NCBI RefSeq assembly: GCF_022968135.1
Contig: NZ_JALJRA010000001.1
Coordinates: forward strand, 1 to 64,000
DNA length: 64,000 nt
DNA from: Pseudorhizobium tarimense
Lineage (GTDB): Bacteria > Pseudomonadota > Alphaproteobacteria > Rhizobiales > Rhizobiaceae
Direction of reading: 5' to 3'
The translations under genes were made by a program, and so were the position numbers. A model generated the notes under the pieces. The model was not told where the DNA came from. It saw only the letters and a program-made list of their open reading frames with translations, and searched no databases. Positions 47,088-56,059 of this stretch are shown here, in pieces (within the stretch, counting starts at the first letter, position 1; each line of letters opens with the position of its first letter).

Positions 47088-47759
47088 TCAGGCGGCGTCG
47101 GCGGGGGCTTGCATCCTGTAGCCCAGGCCACGGACGGTCTCGATCAGGTCGACACCGAGCTTCTTGCGCAGCCGTCCGACAAAGACCTCGATCGTATTGG
47201 AATCCCGGTCGAAGTCCTGGTCATACATGTGCTCCACCAGTTCCGTACGCGACACCACCTCGCCCATGTGGTGCATCAGGTAGGACAGCAGCCGGAATTC
47301 GTGCGAGGTGAGCTTCAGCGGCGTGCCATCAACGGTCGCCTTGGATGCCTTGGTGTCGAGCCGGACCGGCCCGCAGACGATCTCGGATGAGGAATGCCCC
47401 GCCGCGCGGCGGATCAGGGCCCGCACCCGCGCCAGAACCTCCTCCACATGGAAGGGCTTGGCGACATAGTCGTCGGCGCCGGCATCGATGCCGGCCACCT
47501 TGTCGCTCCAGCGGTCGCGCGCCGTCAGCATCAAGACCGGCATGCCCTTGCCTTCCGCCCGCCACTTCTCCACGACGGTGATGCCATCGATCACCGGCAG
47601 ACCGATATCGAGGATCACCGCGTCATAGGGTTCGGTCTCGCCGAGGTAATGCCCCTCTTCGCCGTCGAACGCCTGATCGACGACGTAGCCAGCCTCTTTC
47701 AGGGCATCGGCAAGCTGGCGATTGAGATTGGCGTCGTCTTCGACCACGAGAATGCGCAT
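47088..47759 (-). CDS. feuP: Response regulator FeuP
   Basis: 223 aa from ATG 47759 (MRILVVEDD). The receiver has acidic residues 8-9, Asp51 in ILDIGLPVIDG, and Lys in VAKPFHVEEVLARV. The winged-helix domain carries LKLTSHEFRLLSYLMHHMGEVVSRTELVEHMY and the IEVFVGRLRKKLG recognition region. It is an OmpR/PhoP-type activator and is cotranscribed with its kinase. It lies 43 bp downstream of feuN. Confidence 0.9.
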   Translation of the reverse strand: MRILVVEDDANLNRQLADALKEAGYVVDQAFDGEEGHYLGETEPYDAVILDIGLPVIDGITVVEKWRAEGKGMPVLMLTARDRWSDKVAGIDAGADDYVAKPFHVEEVLARVRALIRRAAGHSSSEIVCGPVRLDTKASKATVDGTPLKLTSHEFRLLSYLMHHMGEVVSRTELVEHMYDQDFDRDSNTIEVFVGRLRKKLGVDLIETVRGLGYRMQAPADAA

Positions 47760-47802
47760 GATCCGTCCCACCCTTGCGGCGGTCGCAAGACCGCCGTCCT
47801 TC

Positions 47803-48063
47803 CTACATCGGCACCCGCACCGTTACCTTGCGCGGCCGCTCATTGCCACTGCCTTGTACGAGGACGGTGACGACGCAGGTCTGGCCATCGGCGGACGGTT
47901 GTGCGGAAAGCAGCTGCCCGCCCGTCTCGCTGACGACGCGGGACGCAGCGGAGCCGCAATCGGCCGCGGCCAGGATGAGGTAGTTCTCCGCTACCGCCGG
48001 TTCGGCGGCAGCCAGACCGGCAAAACCGGCGATGATCATCGCTGTGAGCGGCAGTCTCGCCAT
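47803..48063 (-). CDS. feuN: Small periplasmic regulator FeuN
   Basis: 86 aa from ATG 48063. A signal peptide (hydrophobic to about residue 20, likely cleaved after AVA) releases a small periplasmic protein of about 60 residues with two Cys (36 and 63), which probably form a disulfide, and a basic strand-like end (RPRKVTVRVPM). Position directly upstream of feuP and size agree with FeuN of Sinorhizobium meliloti, a small periplasmic protein that restrains the FeuPQ phosphorelay and is essential when FeuQ is present. Identification rests on synteny, size and export signal more than on memorised sequence. Confidence 0.75.
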   Translation of the reverse strand: MARLPLTAMIIAGFAGLAAAEPAVAENYLILAAADCGSAASRVVSETGGQLLSAQPSADGQTCVVTVLVQGSGNERPRKVTVRVPM

Positions 48064-48189
48064 GTGCAACTTCGTCCATCTTCCGAGCGGATCGAACAGA
48101 TCCAAATCATGTGATGGAGTATGTAATCAGCAACGCCTGAATGGCAAATGAATGGGGGCGGTGCTTTTCGACCCCCGCTTCTTGCAGGT

Positions 48190-48403
48190 TCAACGTGCAA
48201 TTGGGCTGCTCGCCGAGATGCGTCCATAGATCGACACGGCACCGCCCACGACGCCGGCGATGGGCAATGGCAAGGTCCGCAATGTCGTTCCGACGTCCGG
48301 CGCGAGTTCCAAGCCTGTGGCCTTCGCCAGCGAGGCGCCACCGCCACCAGAGCACCCACACCGTCTTTGACTGGTACCACTGTTTCGTCGCATCCATTGT
48401 CAT
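48190..48403 (-). pseudogene. Holin-like small membrane protein gene, frameshifted
   Basis: Starting at ATG 48397 (AGGAG seven nt before it), the translation reads MDATKQWYQSKTVW, then must shift frame to continue as GALVAVA, and shift again to continue ASLAKATGLELAPDVG... ending SIYGRISASSPIAR. The reassembled 69-residue protein has a central hydrophobic segment and the shape of small holin-like proteins that accompany tail genes in alphaproteobacterial gene transfer agents. Two single-base indels within 40 bp make it a pseudogene. It is the distal end of the GTA relic. Confidence 0.65.
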
Positions 48404-48423
48404 GCTCCTTTGCTTAAAGTGAA

Positions 48424-48733
48424 ATCACGGCGGTCGCCGCCAGGCCAGCGGCACGGCCCGACCGATCTGCCGGACACGGATTGCCAATGTCGTCTGGGGC
48501 GGTGTCCGCCACTCAGTTCAGGCTGCGCCCGCGCTCGTCGGTGGTGAGCCCCAAGGGGAACCACCGCCTCGTCGAGCAGCACCACCGGGGAACCGGCCGC
48601 GGAGCCCGCCACCATCGCGTCCTCGTTTCCGGCCAATCCGAGCAGCAGTCGATGTCAACCGGCAGCGATCATGCGCCACCTCCTCCGCTTCAGCAAAGCT
48701 GATGATCTCCCACGTGCCGCTGCTCGAATGCAC
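48424..48733 (-). pseudogene. 3' fragment of the GTA gp15 host-specificity/baseplate gene
   Basis: Translation recovers SSGTWEIISFAEAEEVA, then after a frameshift GLAGNEDAMVAGSAAGS and PVVLLDEAVVPLG, then after another shift LTTDERGRSLN. These blocks follow the C-terminal part of the large GTA baseplate/host-specificity protein (RcGTA gp15). The remaining roughly 1,000 residues are absent. The fragment is fused in frame to the start of gp9, so everything from mid-gp9 to late gp15 has been deleted. Confidence 0.75.
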
Positions 48734-48892
48734 GGCTAGAAGCTCACGCCAGCGCTCGGCGCTTTCTGCGTCCGTCACGTCCACCGTTTCGGCATTGAAG
48801 GCCAGCCGCCGCGAGCGCAGGCCCGCCACCGTCACGTAGCTTGGGCCATTGCCGATCTTCAGCAGCAGAGCCTTGCCCTTCTGCGCCACCAT
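48734..48892 (-). pseudogene. 5' fragment of the GTA major tail protein gene gp9
   Basis: From ATG 48892 the first 53 residues (MVAQKGKALLLKIG..., VTVAGLRSRRLAFNAETVDV, ESAERWRELL) are those of the TP901-1-type major tail protein of rhizobial gene transfer agents. The sequence then changes abruptly to gp15 C-terminal sequence. About 80 residues of gp9 are lost. The open frame also runs upstream past the ATG, but that part is antisense to the MFS leader. Confidence 0.8.
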
Positions 48893-49015
48893 GATCATCC
48901 CTTCTTCCAAGACCAGCTGCCGCCGGTTGGCGGCCATCGTCAGAAATCGCGCTTTCGCCGCAGCCCGCTTGCTGCTACCGGTTGAGACGCCTTCCGCATC
49001 CTTCATCAGGCAATC

Positions 49016-50242
49016 ATGGTCTTCCTCACCAGACGCTCCGCACAGACCATCGCCGTGCTTGCCGTCACCCAACTCACCGGCTGGGGCACGTCATTCGAGG
49101 TGCTGGGCGTCATGGGCCGCATCATCGCGCCCGAGCTTCGCCTGCCGAACGAGGTGATCTTCGGCGGCCTCACCGTGATGATGATCGTCAGCGCCCTTGC
49201 CGGCCCGAAGGTCGGCCGCCTGCTGGAGCGTCATGGCGCTGCCCGAGTCCTAGCACTTGGCGCCACCGCCTTCGCCGTCGGCCTCGCCTTTCTCGCCGTC
49301 AGCACCAATGGCGCCGTCTACATGCTCGCCTGGATCGTCATCGGCCTCGGCGGCGCGTTCGGCCTCTCGGCGCCCGCCTATACCGCCGTGGTAGAACGCG
49401 AGGGCCCGGATGCCCGGCGCATCATCGCAATCCTGATGCTGTTTACCGGTCTCTTGGTCACCATCTTATGGCCGCTTCTGGCGCTGGTGAACGATCTTGT
49501 CGGCTGGCGCCTCACCTTTGCCGCCTGTGCCGCCCTGCAGCTCTTCGTCTGCGTGCCGCTCTATCTCTTTGCGCTGCCGAAACCTGTGGCTGCCACCGCG
49601 GAAGGGCAGCAGCAGGCGCAGCTGCCACCCGTTGCGCTGACGGATGGAGAACGGAGACGAGCTTTCCTCCTCGTCGCCTGCGCCATCACCATCAGCTCTT
49701 TCGTCACCTTCGGCCTGGCACCGGCGCTCCTCGCCCTCCTGCAGCAGGCGGGGGCGACGCCGGAATTGGCACTGCAGCTTGCCGCCGCGCGCGGCGTCTT
49801 CGGCATTTCCGCCCGTTTCGTTGATATGGTTTTCGGTCAGCGCGGCAGCCCCCTCGTCACCGCCTCGGCCGGCTCGCTGCTGATCATCACCGGCCTGACG
49901 CTGCTGCTCTTGATGCCGGGCTCGACCGCCGGGCTCTGGCTCTTTATGATCCTCTACGGCTTCGGCTCCGGTGTCTTTGCGGTTGCCCGCGCCGTCTTGC
50001 CGCTGGCGCTGTTTTCGCCGCGCGAATTCGGCCTGCATTCGGCGCGTCTCTCCCTGCCGCAGAACCTTGCGAATGCCGCCGCGCCAGTCATCTTCACGGC
50101 CTTCCTCGACCGCCTCGGCTATCAGTCCGCCGTTGTTTTCGCCAGCGGCCTTGCCTGCGTCACGCTCCTCGCGATCGTCCTGCTGGTCCGGCTCGTCCGC
50201 CGGGCGCAGGTTCGCGTGCCGCTCACTCCGTCACCTCCCTGA
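49016..50242 (+). CDS. MFS transporter inserted within the GTA relic
   Basis: A 408-aa protein with 12 predicted helices and no frame damage. The N-terminal half has MFS motif A-like GPKVGRLLERHGAARVLALG and helix 4 AWIVIGLGGAFGLSAPAYTAV; the second half includes SLLIITGLTLLLLMPGSTAGLW and YGFGSGVFAVARAVLPLALF. Its substrate is unknown. It lies on the opposite strand between GTA gp8 and the gp9 fragment. Its last 20 bp overlap the gp8 3' end, and its start is 124 bp from the gp9 start. It is not part of a canonical GTA cluster, so it arrived by insertion or rearrangement and has stayed intact. Confidence 0.85.
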   Translation: MVFLTRRSAQTIAVLAVTQLTGWGTSFEVLGVMGRIIAPELRLPNEVIFGGLTVMMIVSALAGPKVGRLLERHGAARVLALGATAFAVGLAFLAVSTNGAVYMLAWIVIGLGGAFGLSAPAYTAVVEREGPDARRIIAILMLFTGLLVTILWPLLALVNDLVGWRLTFAACAALQLFVCVPLYLFALPKPVAATAEGQQQAQLPPVALTDGERRRAFLLVACAITISSFVTFGLAPALLALLQQAGATPELALQLAAARGVFGISARFVDMVFGQRGSPLVTASAGSLLIITGLTLLLLMPGSTAGLWLFMILYGFGSGVFAVARAVLPLALFSPREFGLHSARLSLPQNLANAAAPVIFTAFLDRLGYQSAVVFASGLACVTLLAIVLLVRLVRRAQVRVPLTPSPP

Positions 50243-50618
50243 ACCGCAGTCCAGTCGTGAAATAGCCCATCCTCGCCTGTCGCCGCGTCCTTGTACGCTC
50301 ATGCGCAAGACTCACCAGAACCTGGCCGTCCAGCACCAGTGCTGCATCCTGCAGCAAAGCCCGAACCCATCCCGAAATCTCCTCCGCCTCCCGCCGCCCG
50401 GGGCTACGACCACACCTCAGCGTCAGCGGGTGCTCTTCCCCGGCCTCCGTCGCCGTCGAATAGTCCCGCGTCTCCATTCCGCCCACCACGATGCAGGGCA
50501 GCACCGGGCGTGGCAGCAGCCGGTCGAGAATGCCACCCGCGCCGATCAGTGCCGCAAGTGTCGCATCTCCCGACAGCCGTGCATGGATCGCCGCCAGCAG
50601 CGCATTGGCCGCGCTCAT
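50223..50618 (-). CDS. GTA tail completion protein gp8 (DUF3168), still open
   Basis: 131 aa, uninterrupted. It matches the DUF3168/gp8 tail-component family: ALLAAIHARLSGDATLAALIG near the N-terminus, RPVLPCIVVGGMETRDYSTAT, and a terminal ARMGYFTTGLRFREVTE strand. Its ATG overlaps the gp7 stop (ATGA), as in working clusters. With no intact capsid, portal or tail genes it is most likely non-functional in particle formation, but it has not yet acquired a stop. The MFS gene ends inside its last codons on the other strand. Confidence 0.8.
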   Translation of the reverse strand: MSAANALLAAIHARLSGDATLAALIGAGGILDRLLPRPVLPCIVVGGMETRDYSTATEAGEEHPLTLRCGRSPGRREAEEISGWVRALLQDAALVLDGQVLVSLAHERTRTRRQARMGYFTTGLRFREVTE

Positions 50619-50897
50619 CGTGCCGCCTCCTCGCAGTGGCAGACTAGGTAGCGTCCGGTCTCGTCCGGGTCGCGCACCGGCTTCACCGCAAACAGCCGTG
50701 CGCCCTTTCGGAAACGCTGTCCGACGGCCATGCGGTCACGAAGCGCGATCCAGATGCGGTGCGAGATGACACCCGTCTCGGCAGACGCTTCCTCGCCGAT
50801 TGTCGTCGAAACCGGCTCGATCCGCGCCCAGAGAGACGCCGTGGGGAGCCGGCGACGGTTTCACCGCCCTGTACGTCAGGAGAAAGGTCGCCACCAT
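50615..50897 (-). pseudogene. GTA head-tail adaptor gp7, frameshifted
   Basis: Two frames together give the adaptor protein: DLSPDVQGGETVAGSP in one frame, then TASLWARIEPVSTTIGEE, ETGVISHRIWIALRDRMAVG and the terminal FAVKPVRDPDETGRYLVCHCEE in another. The head-closure/adaptor family normally reads QGGxxxxWxxxAxLWARIEP, so the frameshift lies between GSP and TASL, near 50850. The stop overlaps the gp8 start. Confidence 0.7.
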
Positions 50898-50959
50898 CAG
50901 AGCCTCCGCATCCGGTAGGGCGCGATCCGACGCTCATAGCCGCCGGAAATGCCGGCCGG
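50897..50959 (-). pseudogene. Last codons of GTA gp6 head-tail connector
   Basis: One frame reads SGGYERRIAPYRMRRL and stop. The APYRxxRL end is characteristic of GTA gp6-like connectors, and the position immediately before gp7 is right. Everything upstream of it in gp6, and all of the capsid and prohead protease genes, is missing; the sequence runs directly back into the DUF6107 relic. Confidence 0.5.
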
Positions 50960-51283
50960 CTGAGGATCTAGCCCGACCGCTTGCCCCGTCGCTCCGCCAC
51001 GGCACCATCTCGGCAAGCACCCACAAGGCCATCAGGCTTGCTGCCGCAGATCCCGACAGCGAAAGCTCCAGCCCCGTCAGGTCGCCGACTATCTCCAGCC
51101 GCCCGGCAACCATAGCACGGCCTGCTTGCCGAAGATCAAGCCGCAGCAGAGCCCGGTGAAGAAGCAGCTCGCCGCTTCGCGTCGGCTCTTCGGCAGCAGG
51201 TAGATGAGCGACACGCCCGCGCCAGCCGCCGCCCCGGCCGCCTTCGCCGCCAGCACGCCAACCTCGTTGCCAAGGTCGGCCAT
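50960..51283 (-). pseudogene. DUF6107-family GTA-associated membrane protein, frameshifted
   Basis: From ATG 51283 one frame gives MADLGNEVGVLAAKAAGAAAG and SLIYLLPKSRREAA then CGLIFGK. The continuation RLEIVGDLTGLELSLSGSAAASLMALW is in another frame. Reassembled, this is the small hydrophobic DUF6107 protein found between portal and protease genes in rhizobial GTA clusters. A frameshift near 51120 and the fused gp6 tail mark it as dead. Confidence 0.65.
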
Positions 51284-51533
51284 TGTTAATCTGTCTTGAT
51301 TAGAATGGAATCATAGATGGGGCGTGTGGGATAATGCCCTCGGACCAATTATCGAGGCCTGCGAGTCGCTTAGCCGCGCCGGCTCACATCAAGATTGCGC
51401 TCTTTCAAGTAGAAGATGAACACGGCCGGCCGCCCCCCCTGCATCCTCGATCCCTGCTCTTCATCCACAGCGACTGTCATACAGCTTAAATCGCCATTGG
51501 TTTATCTGTGTCGAAAGCAGTTGGAGGGCATGA
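51284..51533. other. Interval between DUF6107 relic and PAP2 gene
   Basis: Two hundred fifty bases with no recognisable gene. The segment near the PAP2 gene is comparatively AT-rich and probably holds its promoter. The PAP2 start has a GGAGG ribosome binding site at 51523-51527. Confidence 0.5.
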
Positions 51534-52424
51534 ATGACATACGTCTTGATATCCGAGCAGGCGCGGCGCGGAACGTTCGTGGAGAAACCTCTCCTCTTGG
51601 CCGCTCTCTTCACCTCAACGGTTTCCCTCGTTTTCCTCACCTTCCCGCAGATCGATATCGCGTTCAGCGATCTCTTCTATGTCGAAGGCCTTGGCTTTAC
51701 TGCCGACAAAGTCGAGGCGCTGCAGACCTTCCGCGCCATCGGCCAGTATTTCCCGCTGACGCTCTCGATCGTCATGCTCGTCGGGCTGATCCTGAAACTG
51801 AGCTACCCCTCGCGGCCCTGCCTGTTTCCGCCCCGCTTCGCCGTCTATTTCGCCAGCCTCTTTCTCCTGGGGCCCGGGCTCCTGGTAAACGGCATCCTGA
51901 AGCCCCTGATCGACCGCCCGCGTCCGCGCCACGTGCTCGAGTTCGGCGGCGCGAAAGACTTCCTGCCGGTCTGGACCATGGGTGGAGAGTTCTACGACGA
52001 TCGCTCCTTTGTTTCCGGCGAAGCCGCCGTCGTCGTGTGCCTCATTCCGCTTGCCCTGTTCGTGCCCGCGGTGTGGCGGCGCTGCGTCTTCGTGCTGCTC
52101 TCCATCTTCGCCGCCGGCATTTCGCTCAACCGCATCGCATTTGGGGCGCATTTCCTGTCGGACGTGCTGATCGCCGCCGGCCTCATGGGCATGCTTTCGA
52201 TCGGCCTCTGGTATCTGATCTATGCCCGCCCGGGCGGGCAGTCCTGCGAGATTAAGCTTGATGCCGAACTCAGCCGGATCGGCTTTGCCCTCCAGCGCCA
52301 GCGGGGAACCGCGGTTAGGGGCGTCCGAGGCGGCTTCGCGCAGGCGCTCTCCACGCTCCCGCCGATAAGCGCCTCCTTAAAGCCGAAGGTCCGGAGATCC
52401 GCCAGCCGCCCGTCCGAGGCTTGA
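51534..52424 (+). CDS. PAP2-family membrane phosphatase
   Basis: 296 aa with six hydrophobic helices. The three phosphatase motifs are recognisable: KPLIDRPRPRH (motif 1), SFVSGEA (motif 2, usually PSGH, so the His is replaced by Glu) and GISLNRIAFGAHFLSDV (motif 3 with the nucleophilic His). Such proteins dephosphorylate lipid phosphates (lipid A, undecaprenyl pyrophosphate or phosphatidylglycerophosphate) on the periplasmic face. The altered motif 2 is seen in some rhizobial homologues as I recall, so it does not prove loss of activity. The last 50 or so residues are basic and low in complexity and run up to the relic of the portal gene on the opposite strand, suggesting a tail acquired at the junction. 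Confidence 0.8.
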   Translation: MTYVLISEQARRGTFVEKPLLLAALFTSTVSLVFLTFPQIDIAFSDLFYVEGLGFTADKVEALQTFRAIGQYFPLTLSIVMLVGLILKLSYPSRPCLFPPRFAVYFASLFLLGPGLLVNGILKPLIDRPRPRHVLEFGGAKDFLPVWTMGGEFYDDRSFVSGEAAVVVCLIPLALFVPAVWRRCVFVLLSIFAAGISLNRIAFGAHFLSDVLIAAGLMGMLSIGLWYLIYARPGGQSCEIKLDAELSRIGFALQRQRGTAVRGVRGGFAQALSTLPPISASLKPKVRRSASRPSEA

Positions 52425-53560
52425 GCCCTTGATAGCCAACCGCCTGGCGCTTTTCCTCATCGGTCAGGAAATCTGCCGCGCCGAAACGGGCCCAGAGCGC
52501 GTCCCGCTCCGCCGAAAGGCCGGCGAGCTGATCGAGATCCGACGCCAGCCGCAGCGCCTCGCCATAGGCGTCCGGCAGCCAGGCGGAAAGGCTCGCCGCC
52601 GTCCGGGTCAGAAGCGGCACCACCGTCAGCCGGTAGAAGGCGCGGTTGGCCTCTTGGTAGTTCGAATAGGTATTGTCGCCTGGAATGCCGATCAGCATCG
52701 GCGGCACGCCGAGCGACAGCGCAATATCGCGAGCGGCGGCGTTCTTTGCTTCGATGAAGTCCATGTCCTTCGGCGAAAAACCCATCGCCTTCCAGTCGAG
52801 CCCTTCTTCGAGCAGCAGCGGCCGCTCGTCATCCACCGCCCCGGCGTACCCGCTTCCGAGCTCCGCCTTCAGCCGCTCGTACTGGTCGGCGGCAATCTGT
52901 CGGCCTTCCTTCGGCTGCTAGACCAGCGCAGCGGAAGGGCGCGCCGAATTGTCGAGCAGCGCCTTGTTCCACTCGCCTGCGGCATTGTGCAGGTCGAGCG
53001 CCGCACCAGCGGCGGAAAGTCCAGATGATCGTCCAGTGGATGGAGAACAGCTTCAGGTGCAGCAGCGGGAGCCCTCTCCCTGCCCGCCTCCGCCGGCAGC
53101 CGCCGCGTGACATTGCCTGCACGGTAGTCGTAGCCGGTGACCCAGCCGTCGCGGCTCTCCACGACGCTCATCCGGTCGGGACGCAGCAGATGCAGCTCGC
53201 GCAAGGCTTCGCCCAGCATCAGCGGCTCGATATAGGCAATGTCGGCAAGCATCAGGTGCCCGTAGAGCGCCTCGAAGAAGTCCGGCCCACTCTGGCACGC
53301 GTTCGGTTGGGCGAGCAGCGTCAGCGCCGGATGCTGGCTCACCTCCGCCTCGCCGTCATAGGCCAACCAGGGCACCGAGGCCGCCGCCTCCGCCACCAGC
53401 CGCAGGGCGCGGTGCGCCACCGGGTTCTTCATGAGCCCAGCCCGCGCCAGCCCGCCATAGGAGCGTCCGGATCAGTGGGCGATCCCGTCGCCGGCCACGA
53501 TCGCAAAGCCACCGCCCATCCCCTTTGCCTCGCCCGCGTTCGTGCCGCCCGTCTCGGGCT
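52425..53560 (-). pseudogene. GTA/HK97-type portal protein gene, multiply broken
   Basis: Pieces of the HK97-family portal (RcGTA gp3) appear in order. N-terminal: AGLMKNPVAHRALRLVAEAAASVPWL, HPALTLLAQPNACQSGPDFFEALYGH and LLRPDRMSV. Central: LLHLKLF, HPLDDHLDF, then ALDLHNAAGEWNKALLDNSARPSAALV, each in a different frame. An amber stop at 52918-52920 follows, then in the same frame ERLKAEL and DWKAMGFSPKDMDFIEAKN, GVPPMLIGIPGDNTYSNYQEA, and FLTDEEKRQAVGYQG. At least three frameshifts (between about 53030 and 53120) and one stop are needed, but most of the coding length survives. Confidence 0.85.
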
Positions 53561-53653
53561 GCGGCAGCCGATATCCTGCGCGGGTCTGCACCCACGGCAA
53601 AAAAATGGAGATTTCATTCCTTTGCGTTTCTTAAAGGCGCGAAGGGCGCGCCG

Positions 53654-54307
53654 TCACTCGATCCGGACCGATTTGCGCGTGCCATCGGTGGCCGTATTGC
53701 CGGCCTGCTCCTCCAGGATCCGCGTGATGCGCTTTTTCTCGCGCCGCGAGCGGATCTGGCGTGCCGTCACCAGTTCGGCATCGAGCAGCTTCTGCTTGCC
53801 CTTAGCGCGCACGGCGAAGGAGCGTTCCGCCGCCGCCAGTTGGTCGTGCCAGGTATAGATCCCGACCGCCGTCACCGAGAGGTGCTGCAGCCCGTCGATC
53901 AGCGCCTTCGGGCCATCGTGGTGCATCGCCGCGGTCACCAGTTCCTCGAAAGTGCCGAGATCAAGATATTCTCCGCTCGACAGCGGTCCCTGGAAAAGCT
54001 CGCTTCGCGGATCCCGGTCCTGCCGGCTCACCCGGTCGATGTCGCTCAGCGAGCACACCACCACCCGGTCCGGAAATGTCAGCCTGAGGACGACCGCCTG
54101 GATGAAGACGATCTCCGGGCTCATATTGGTCAGGATGCAGCGCGAGGTGATTGCATGCCCGCCACCGCGAGTGATCAGGATCTTCGGCCGCAGCCGGTGC
54201 CGGTAGCTGCTGTAGAACAGCTGCAGGTACAGCACCCACACGCCCAACATGGCAAAGCTTGAAAGCGCGGAGACTACCCCGCTGTTTTCGATGATCCACG
54301 CCCACAT
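53654..54307 (-). CDS. Conserved hypothetical membrane-anchored protein, 217 aa
   Basis: A single N-terminal transmembrane helix (about residues 8-32) is followed by a soluble beta-rich domain with RLRPKILITRGGGHAITSRCILTNMS, and a Lys/Arg-rich C-terminus. The frame is clean and base composition is like the chromosome. Proteins of this description occur in several rhizobia as I recall, but I know no function. It sits in the GTA relic, between the portal and antitoxin-like pseudogenes, and is not a recognised GTA structural gene. Confidence 0.65.
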   Translation of the reverse strand: MWAWIIENSGVVSALSSFAMLGVWVLYLQLFYSSYRHRLRPKILITRGGGHAITSRCILTNMSPEIVFIQAVVLRLTFPDRVVVCSLSDIDRVSRQDRDPRSELFQGPLSSGEYLDLGTFEELVTAAMHHDGPKALIDGLQHLSVTAVGIYTWHDQLAAAERSFAVRAKGKQKLLDAELVTARQIRSRREKKRITRILEEQAGNTATDGTRKSVRIE

Positions 54308-54423
54308 GAAGCCACCTCGCCGGTCTGATGCAGGCCCGGAACCACGGCAAGGCGCCTCAGGTTCCTGCCGGCATCGCCGGCGATCTGTCGCAGGCGCGCG
54401 TTGGAGGGGCTACGACGCCTACG

Positions 54424-54780
54424 CTGCCTGCGTATGTCCATTTCAGCGATGATACGGTCCCAGCAGACGAAGATCTGCCCCGTATCGGTTCGATCGATCA
54501 GTCCCGTATCGAGAGGTGCCGCGACATCGGCATGAACGCCGCGGTAGTCGCGATGCAAGATCTACGACAGATTGCGGATGGAGGTCGGCCCTTGCACCTT
54601 CAGTGCCCGCAGCAACCGCCACCGGTTCGGCGTCAGCACCTTGAGGAGAAGGTCCATGCTCTCAAAGGCAATCTCGGCCTCCGTGCCTTCGCTGTCACCG
54701 CGATCGATCCTCTGCGCTGCCTCGGCCGGCATTGGAAGAAGTTGGCCGTATCCGACACACGAAGCCGAAACTTCCTTCAT
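54424..54780 (-). pseudogene. HVO_A0114-type HTH antitoxin/regulator interrupted by one amber codon
   Basis: From ATG 54780 the frame reads FESMDLLLKVLTPNRWRLLRAL and KVQGPTSIRNLS, meets TAG at 54562-54564, and continues in the same frame ILHRDYRGVHADVAAPLDTG and LIDRTDTGQIFVCWDRII. This is the winged-helix of the HVO_A0114 family of putative antitoxins, which usually reads SIRELARxLGRDxxxVHxDV. A single nonsense codon within the recognition region inactivates it. The short frame ending just before its start (about 54783-54850) might be the tail of a partner toxin, but I cannot confirm that. Confidence 0.65.
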
Positions 54781-54993
54781 CTTCTCCTCTCCCGCTCCAC
54801 ATCCCGTTCAACGGCCTGTCGATGGCACCGGATGTCATGGCGAATGATCCCTCTGCAGAAAAGATGCGGTTTCAATCGGTTTAGAAAAACTAAATCGTTT
54901 TAAGCTTTTAGAGGCTGATTTACATTTCCTTCACACTGTGGAACCAAGGCACCGACAGGACGTTTTGCCCGGCCTTTTGTGACAGGAGTGATC

Positions 54994-55134
54994 ATGACGA
55001 TGTACCCGCAAGTCCCGGCCCCGCAGCCGAACCAGCCCATTCCGCAGCACGTCCTGGAGCGCCTCGAATCCGAATGGCGCCAGATGCGCGACAGTGCTCC
55101 GCGGCCTGCCCGACCGCTTCCTGCCGCCGAATAG
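54994..55134 (+). CDS. Small proline-rich ORF, 46 aa
   Basis: ATG 54994 follows AGGAG by seven nt. The product starts with a Pro/Gln-rich stretch, then has a short helix-like HVLERLESEWRQMRDS and a Pro/Arg-rich end. No family is recognised. It lies in the opposite orientation to the GTA scraps; its stop is 9 bp from the end of the terminase fragment. The evidence for coding is the ribosome binding site and the helix. Confidence 0.4.
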   Translation: MTMYPQVPAPQPNQPIPQHVLERLESEWRQMRDSAPRPARPLPAAE

Positions 55135-55143
55135 GCTTCTGCC

Positions 55144-55642
55144 TCAGATCCCCCTGATCCTGGTTTCCCCCTGCTCGTCGATCAGGAGCGCCGTCAGCGC
55201 CCAGACCAGTGCATCCAGCCGGTCGGGCGATCGGCCCGGCGACAGGCCGTCAGGGCAGAAATCACACATCTGATACTCCAGCGCGACAAACCTCTCCGCA
55301 TGCGCCACCCGGCGCTGTTCGTACACAATCAGCGACATGGCGTCCGTCGCCGCCGTGATGTCGGCGGCGGGCAACCTTGCCCACCGCCTCGTCGCCCGCT
55401 GCAAGCAACCCTTCGGCCGCAATCCCCATCTCGCGGAAGCTCTCGAACTGCCGGCGCATCTCGACTGTCATCTCGTTTAAGAACCGGCGCAGTTCTTCCG
55501 CGGTCGAAGGCTCTTCGCCGTCGGCCGACTTCGTCCCCAGCACGACCGCACACGTCCTCCACCAGCGGATCATCCTCGGTTCAGGCCGCGTGATAAGCGG
55601 GCCAGCTTGCCAGCAGCCGAACAAGGCGAAGTCCACCGCCAT
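55144..55642 (-). pseudogene. GTA terminase 3' fragment fused to an upstream GTA gene, frameshifted
   Basis: The last 50 or so residues (YEQRRVAHAERFVALEYQMC, DGLSPGRSPDRLDALVWALTALL) are the C-terminus of the GTA large terminase, including the conserved GRSPDRLDALVWA block. Before it lies an unrelated helical segment, AEELRRFLNEMTVEMRRQFESFREMG and ADITAATDAMSLI, interrupted by a frameshift near 55375. It looks like the small gene (gp1 position) that precedes terminase in rhizobial clusters. The ATPase and most of the nuclease of terminase are missing. One deletion has therefore joined the two genes. Confidence 0.7.
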
Positions 55643-56059
55643 CGGATCGATGGTAGCACGGATTGATCGGCAGTAGCCATCCAGATCCTCGCACGCACCG
55701 CTCCCGGAGAAGCCGGAGCTGCGGCGGTATTATGCTGCGTCTGAACGAAAAAAGGCCCGGCGCAGGGGGCCGGACCAACTTTGACTGGAAAGTCTATAAA
55801 CCGGCTCGCCGCCGGCTACAGATCTTCGATTGTGCCTGTACACTATCAGAGCACCGTCACCCAGTCAAGGATTATTTTCCTATCACAGCGAAGTTACCGG
55901 CTACAGCACTCCGCGGTGCCCTAATGGCCAGTCGAGCAGCCGGCATTTCAGCTTGAGTTTTAAACATTTGAGCATTTTACGATCCTGGGCGATAACTCGC
56001 ACTCGGGCACTTCCGCCCTTTTCTCCACGCCAAGGATCACCCGCGCATCTTCAAAATAT
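55643..56059. other. Interval between GTA relic and chemoreceptor pseudogene
   Basis: About 417 bp without a recognisable gene. It contains a minus-strand terminator-like hairpin (annotated) and a comparatively AT-rich second half that may have been the promoter and lost 5' end of the chemoreceptor gene. Confidence 0.5.
55748..55775 (-). terminator. Orphan terminator-like hairpin
   Basis: On the minus strand a GC-rich 5-bp stem (55754-55758 with 55767-55771) is followed by TTTTTT (55748-55753). No minus-strand gene precedes it, so it may be left over from a deleted gene. Confidence 0.4.

Follow-up and report, generated by a model that had tools for sequence, protein, structure and literature searches.

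The window analysed here, a 64-kb stretch at the start of contig C11 in the draft genome of Pseudorhizobium tarimense (4.86 Mb, 99.93% complete), contains a block of about 7.5 kb that carries the remains of a gene transfer agent (GTA). From 55.65 to 48.19 kb, and all on the minus strand, lie in order pieces of gp1, the tail of the terminase TerL, a stub of a GH19 lysozyme gene, the portal gene, a DUF6107 gene, the tail of gp6, gp7, gp8, a chimera of the gp9 N-end and the gp15 C-end, and a holin-like gene. These calls were made by tblastn with proteins from the GTA clusters of relatives, together with Pfam and PHROG scans. The gp numbers follow the usage for the GTA of Rhodobacter capsulatus (RcGTA), and the likeness to R. 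capsulatus rests on the genes of the relatives and on family models. A sequence-only reading of the stretch had listed the pieces, without the lysozyme stub, as minus-strand scraps in canonical GTA order, and tblastn and Pfam confirm this. Relatives are cited by genome (G) and locus (L) handles; G064 is the sister of the window species on a GlnE tree (93% at the amino acid level).

The GTA remnants

The gp1 remnant (55367-55654) matches residues 9-105 of 204 (tblastn, 59.8% identity, E 5e-30) and goes on in another frame that runs into the TerL tail (frame 55144-55422, read by eye). TerL (gp2) is reduced to its C-terminal 60 residues (467-526 of 526; 55147-55326; tblastn 80%, E 2.5e-25), which match PF17289 below cut-off only. 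The lysozyme stub comprises 33 N-terminal codons with a stop at codon 19 (54858-54956; tblastn 64%, E 9e-8); the full gene of G064 matches PF00182. The portal (gp3) pseudogene is near full length (52432-53597) but is split over two frames with two in-frame stops, and was recovered by tblastn and by PF04860 in two parts. The DUF6107 gene, which in relatives sits between portal and protease, also occupies two frames (51006-51307; PF19602 1-59 of 106, and tblastn). It is followed by the last 23 residues of gp6 (167-189 of 189; 50900-50968; tblastn 78% over 23 residues, E 4e-7) and by residues 36-110 of 110 of gp7 (50618-50842; tblastn 71%, E 9e-33). The tail completion gene gp8 is open over its full length (50223-50618; PF11367 1-123 of 124, E 6.7e-23; 70% to G064). 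It is the sole intact gene in the window (1/13) among the 13 core genes used for per-locus scoring, a set from which gp1 and gp10 were excluded because the panel scores both poorly. The tail tube gene gp9 retains residues 1-53 of 135 (48734-48892; tblastn 89%, E 8e-27; PF06199) and runs into a C-terminal remnant of gp15, the 'megatron', with a stop and a frame change (48412-48739; tblastn to residues 1060-1162 of 1267 of G009 gp15). This chimera matches PF06199 plus PF23666 (E 7e-6; 26.6 bits, just under the cut-off of 27), and the Rcc01698_C end of gp15, just below cut-off, is the sole remnant of a GTA-specific family in the window. The holin-like gene (48193-48397) is in two frames and is 54-64% identical to the gene of G064; its label comes from the sequence-only reading, and the G064 copy matched no Pfam family. 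Profile searches confirmed the portal (PF04860), gp8 (PF11367) and DUF6107 (PF19602), and a picture of unrelated prophages did not emerge.

The capsid gene and gp10-gp14, which had been reported missing, had no tblastn match in this region (threshold E 0.01), and no match to capsid, gp13 or GTA_TIM was found anywhere in the whole genome of the window strain. The same capsid and gp13 searches detect GTA-type genes in 47/57 and 47/57 genomes of the genus. For the protease, also reported missing, the only tblastn match was one of 33 residues (E 0.003), which involved the stretch of the query overlapping DUF6107. A full set of head and tail genes with capsid, as needed for a functional GTA, was not found in the window genome. 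No integrase or phage replication gene appeared among the window proteins scanned, although no search was aimed at them.

About six internal deletion junctions were located in the window cluster by comparison with G064 and G009. At the gp1/TerL junction, about 1.65 kb was lost upstream of the TerL tail relative to G064, and the lysozyme gene has lost about 0.9 kb of its body relative to G009. Between DUF6107 and gp6 (junction at 50956-50962), 2.65 kb of G064 sequence is missing, comprising the protease, the capsid and most of gp6; the flanking alignments to G064 overlap there by 7 bp. A small deletion lies between gp6 and gp7. At the gp9/gp15 junction (48718-48739), gp10-gp14 and about 84% of gp15 are missing, a gap equal to 10.98 kb of G064 sequence that consists partly of inserts peculiar to G064, and a further 0.3 kb or so is lost at the end of gp15. 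Stops were found in the portal (two), the lysozyme stub and a winged-helix gene described below, and frame changes in gp1, portal, DUF6107, gp15 and the holin-like gene. The junctions thus bear out the earlier proposal of serial internal deletions, and the stops and frame changes that of point decay. As a separate observation, gp9 is cut at points a few bases apart (near codon 52-53; window 48734-48739) in the window and in G034 (contig C3, L080). The two deletions join different points of gp15, and the coincidence may be due to chance.

Constraint on the portal also appears to have been lost. Changes unique to the window fell at codon positions 1+2 versus 3 in a ratio of 26:17; in G068, which has an open portal, the ratio was 8:25 (Fisher p 0.0024; the comparison sets were unequal, with 5 other species for the window and 4 for G068, the window being omitted there). 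With the TerL tail added, the ratios were 34:22 in the window and 11:32 in G068 (p 0.0006). The flanking response regulator gene showed no difference (2:10 vs 3:13).

This response regulator gene (47088-47771, minus strand; PF00072 and PF00486; 96% to G064) is common to the window and its relatives and anchors the synteny. The syntenic locus, which the sequence-only reading had singled out for comparison, carries in relatives a GTA cluster of 17-23 kb at the same chromosomal site beside the regulator. The gp15 of G010 matches NF048004 (GTA_megatron) with 1694.7 bits against a cut-off of 800, and the gp13 of relatives matches TIGR02218, 'phage/gene transfer agent baseplate hub protein'. Other genes of these clusters match TIGR01537 (portal_HK97), a proheadase model, TIGR01554 (major_cap_HK97), TIGR02215, TIGR02217 (gp12) and TIGR02219, and in Pfam GTA_TIM (PF13547), Phage-tail_3, Rcc01698_C and GTA-gp10. 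No NCBIfam model matched the TerL or gp8 of G064, and no Pfam model matched its gene at the gp11 position. Because the same-site cluster in relatives scores as a GTA family by family, the block is, as judged by sequence comparison, a decayed RcGTA-like head-tail cluster and not a random prophage. Gene order and families in the copies of relatives are like those of the RcGTA cluster (R. capsulatus gp1-gp15), whereas the window differs in holding fragments only and in having three embedded open genes that are non-structural. The lysozyme stub of the window lies between terminase and portal, where the GTA clusters of Agrobacterium and Rhizobium sp. IRBG74 described in PMC11409702 have a lysozyme gene.

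Open genes embedded in the block

The three open genes encode a membrane-anchored protein of unassigned family (217 aa; 53654-54307, minus strand; 68% to G068, 63% to G064; no Pfam match at E 0.01), a PAP2-superfamily phosphatase on the opposite strand (296 aa; 51534-52424, plus strand; PF01569 E 1.8e-16; 72% to G068) and, also on the plus strand, a major facilitator superfamily (MFS) transporter in the gap between gp8 and gp9 (408 aa; 49016-50242; PF07690; 72% to the same-position gene of G010). All three resemble genes at matching positions in relatives. A fourth non-structural gene, of the HVO_A0114-type winged-helix kind, is near full length with one stop (54433-54780, minus strand; tblastn 64% over 116 of 120 residues; PF25212). 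The earlier listing had omitted these four genes as well as the lysozyme stub. Its picture of a graveyard is apt for the GTA scraps, which are ruined, but the block is not merely debris, because 2.8 of its 7.5 kb is made up of the three open genes.

In the GTA regions of G029, G009, G032, G067 and G078 the winged-helix gene is found with a small preceding gene, and no match to such a partner of the window gene was found. The two genes look like a candidate toxin-antitoxin pair.

Lesions were unevenly distributed, with a hand count of about 10 in the 3.78 kb of scraps (winged-helix gene included) against 0 in the 2.77 kb of open genes (P 0.004). Across the 12 broken loci of the genus, introduced below, surviving copies of the dabb, MFS, PAP2 and membrane-protein genes were intact in 20/20 cases, compared with 39/75 for core genes (Fisher 1.8e-5), and adding the winged-helix gene gave 21/22 against 39/75 (Fisher 1.2e-4); the loci are not independent, so these Fisher values are only descriptive.

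The MFS gene was followed in most detail. A search of wider genome contigs yielded 15 loci that bear it, four of which (L083, L084, L092, L095) are the same records as the genus members G022, G065, G012 and G027; in 12 of the 15 the gene lies between gp8 and gp9. The other three are L095, which keeps a gp8 remnant only, L089, which has no structural genes, and L093 (Stappia), which has no adjoining GTA gene. On account of this shared position the gene is taken to be an old resident of the gp8/gp9 gap, and a recent insertion into the ruin was rejected. Within the genus it is intact in 38/45 retained and 8/12 broken loci, with 7 changes on the tree. The broken loci that lack it, those of G024, G068, G069 and G078, are also loci with absent or truncated gp8 and gp9. 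Together these patterns suggest that embedded genes can outlive their GTA.

Loss across the genus, and the sister species

GTA-type capsid and gp13 were searched for in 57 species genomes of the genus, the window species included. The capsid was missing or partial in 10/57 (the window, G024, G027, G028, G034, G065, G068, G069, G072 and G076), and gp13 was missing in 10/57 (the window, G022, G024, G027, G034, G065, G068, G069, G076 and G078), so that 12/57 species have lost one or both. Weak or distant capsid matches in G034, G065 and G068 (31-41% identity) and a 36-residue scrap in G034 were read as other prophages or scraps. In G024, residues 8-239 of the capsid remain, interrupted by a stop, and a distant second copy lies elsewhere. 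Both genes are kept in 45/57, in line with the earlier description of a lineage that usually keeps its GTA, although loss in 12 species is not rare. The other 45 loci had 10 to 13 of the 13 core genes scored intact. TerL, gp14 or gp15 calls were cut by stretch or contig ends in G007, G021, G032, G060, G073, G074, G071 and G077, none of which was entered as broken. Nor was G062, whose cluster ends inside gp13 and is followed by at least 15 kb of other DNA.

The GlnE tree has 56 rows, G075 being omitted because its glnE match comes in pieces. On this tree the fewest state changes were 9, or 10 if G062 is added, a parsimony count that does not separate loss from regain. For five broken species, the sister or nearest row has 10-13 core genes intact (window/G064, G034/G016, G028/G025, G069/G067 and G072/G035). 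In the 12 broken loci, 75/156 core genes are still present, 39 of them intact and 36 in damaged form. The lysozyme gene, counted with the GTA, is intact in 6/12 and the holin-like gene in 9/12. DUF6107 is intact in 8/10 of the broken loci that possess it and in 38/45 of the others, and therefore does not differ between broken and other loci. In G024 (contig C33, L200) a phage-like block, seen by eye and unscanned, lies upstream of a truncated gp15, where the rest of the cluster would be expected.

In the sister species, G064, 12/13 core genes were scored intact. Its head module groups with that of G009 (support 100), and the approximately unbiased (AU) test rejects the grouping of G009 with G029 (p 8e-5), whereas glnE rejects the grouping of G009 with G064 (p 7.6e-4). 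Among 946 pairs from 44 genomes, the ratio of 4-fold divergence in the head genes to that in glnE is lowest for G009-G064, a pair that had been noticed before the scan, at 0.36 (0.18 vs 0.50). A generally low 4-fold divergence of head genes was rejected as the cause of this similarity, as the median ratio over all pairs is 0.88. For gp12-gp13, the divergence between G009 and G064 is 0.43 and the species grouping is not rejected (AU test, p 0.13). Because the head trees and the lowest divergence ratio conflict with glnE, the head module has, on this phylogenetic evidence, been exchanged between G064 (L067/L068) and the more distant G009 (L063/L064), in either direction.

Probable course of the decay

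These results are best explained by an inherited RcGTA-like cluster that failed and was then eroded by deletions and lesions while useful embedded genes were kept, as one of at least nine state changes in the genus; we give this a probability of roughly 0.88. The head-tail cluster would have been inherited vertically, and its function lost in the lineage of the window species, most likely after the split from G064. Erosion would have followed through the six or so deletions within the cluster, together with stops and frameshifts. Producer cells must lyse to release GTAs, according to the available text of PMC9836097, and because of this non-producers can spread within a population; they may have been favoured, or at least tolerated. 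A deletion bias may have removed dispensable DNA. The MFS gene above all, along with the PAP2 and membrane-protein genes, would have settled between GTA genes before the loss, and selection would tend to retain them while the vehicle decays because they still serve the cell.

Because GTA head and tail genes have homologues in phages, and extra portal and capsid copies, probably prophages, occur elsewhere in several relatives, an ordinary prophage that resembled a GTA, integrated and then decayed had to be considered. Such an origin is extremely improbable, and was rejected on synteny and GTA-specific families: relatives within the genus share the cluster, its site and the adjoining response regulator, as do 12 loci of Rhizobium, Neorhizobium, Metarhizobium or other Rhizobiales, and the gp15 and gp13 of relatives score as GTA_megatron and as the phage/GTA baseplate hub. 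That the residue is a reduced device still under selection for a use other than gene transfer, made up for example of gp8, the holin-like gene and the passengers, is very improbable. Its appeal lies in the open gp8 and in the intact DUF6107 and holin-like genes of 8 and 9 of the 12 broken loci, respectively. However, in the window both of the latter genes have lost their frame, and portal, gp9, gp15 and TerL remain only in unusable form; DUF6107 is intact no more often in broken (8/10) than in other loci (38/45), and constraint was not seen in the unique changes of gp8 (18:10 at positions 1+2 vs 3).

The head module of G064 bears on a further alternative, in which a single failure of the cluster, in the common ancestor of G068, the window species and G064, was followed in G064 by its rebuilding through recombination with a G009-like donor. 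The grouping of that module with G009 against glnE, and its lowest ratio of 946 pairs, would fit such a history, as would the absence from the G064 locus of MFS and PAP2 genes, both of which occur in the window. A loss shared with G068 was nevertheless rejected, since the window and G068 have no deletion junction in common, and different genes survive in the two. Furthermore, gp12-gp13 of G064 do not look recently imported (0.43; p 0.13), so the ancestor shared by G064 and the window species probably had tail genes already. We regard a single failure with later rebuilding as unlikely, and retain failure of an inherited cluster within the lineage of the window species as the preferred reading.

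Several observations nonetheless weigh against that reading. The gp15 of G064 reads in two frames, and the cluster of the sister may therefore not work either; most of the genomes are drafts, so that single frameshifts may be sequencing errors. The unique changes in gp7 (12:13) and gp8 (18:10) of the window are not distinct from those of relatives. With respect to the passengers, the winged-helix gene is one non-structural gene of the window that did break, and when it is moved to their side the lesion counts become 9 vs 1 (P 0.016). Constraint was not seen in the unique changes at positions 1+2 vs 3 of the window membrane protein (12:3) or of MFS (33:24, which has no fair control). G029 has a near-whole cluster yet a damaged membrane-protein gene, the sole damaged passenger outside the broken loci, and MFS is absent from 4/12 broken and 7/45 other loci.

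The long persistence of GTAs, whose release lyses the producer, calls for an explanation. A speculative answer, to which we give rather little credence, is that in this genus the GTA persists despite repeated loss through re-seeding of the locus from one species to another, by homologous recombination in conserved flanks and surviving scraps or passengers. If so, the window would be an allele that was not rescued, and G064 would show the exchange of a head module with a more distant species; loss of the GTA would be reversible, and relics would serve as landing pads. The 12 broken and 45 retained clusters, with nine or more changes between these states, mapped breakpoints and sisters in opposite states, make the rate and route of GTA loss measurable. 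If embedded genes do outlive the GTA, selection on the particle can be separated from selection on its neighbours.

RcGTA-like clusters have been reported in 155/300 Rhizobiales operational taxonomic units (52%; PMC6821227, in its available part). Pseudogenisation and complete loss of GTAs are described for multiple alphaproteobacterial lineages in the available text of PMC10883770, with cheater lineages, niche and alternative mechanisms offered as causes; that text gives no per-gene breakpoints within a single genus, counts of independent losses or fate of embedded genes. Decayed GTA clusters were thus already known, and what appears new here, set beside that text, is an unusually well resolved series of losses. 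No paper on the GTA relics of this genus, or on embedded genes outliving a GTA, was found in the openly licensed literature. At the syntenic site of Rhizobium mesosinicum HU56 (L089), the genes for the response regulator, MFS, dabb and lysozyme are retained, whereas no structural GTA gene was detected in the 15.2 kb searched, up to the end of the contig; this locus looks like an end state of the decay seen in the window. Between the block and the response regulator gene of the window lies a small open gene (47803-48105, minus strand; 83% to G009), which is outside the GTA.

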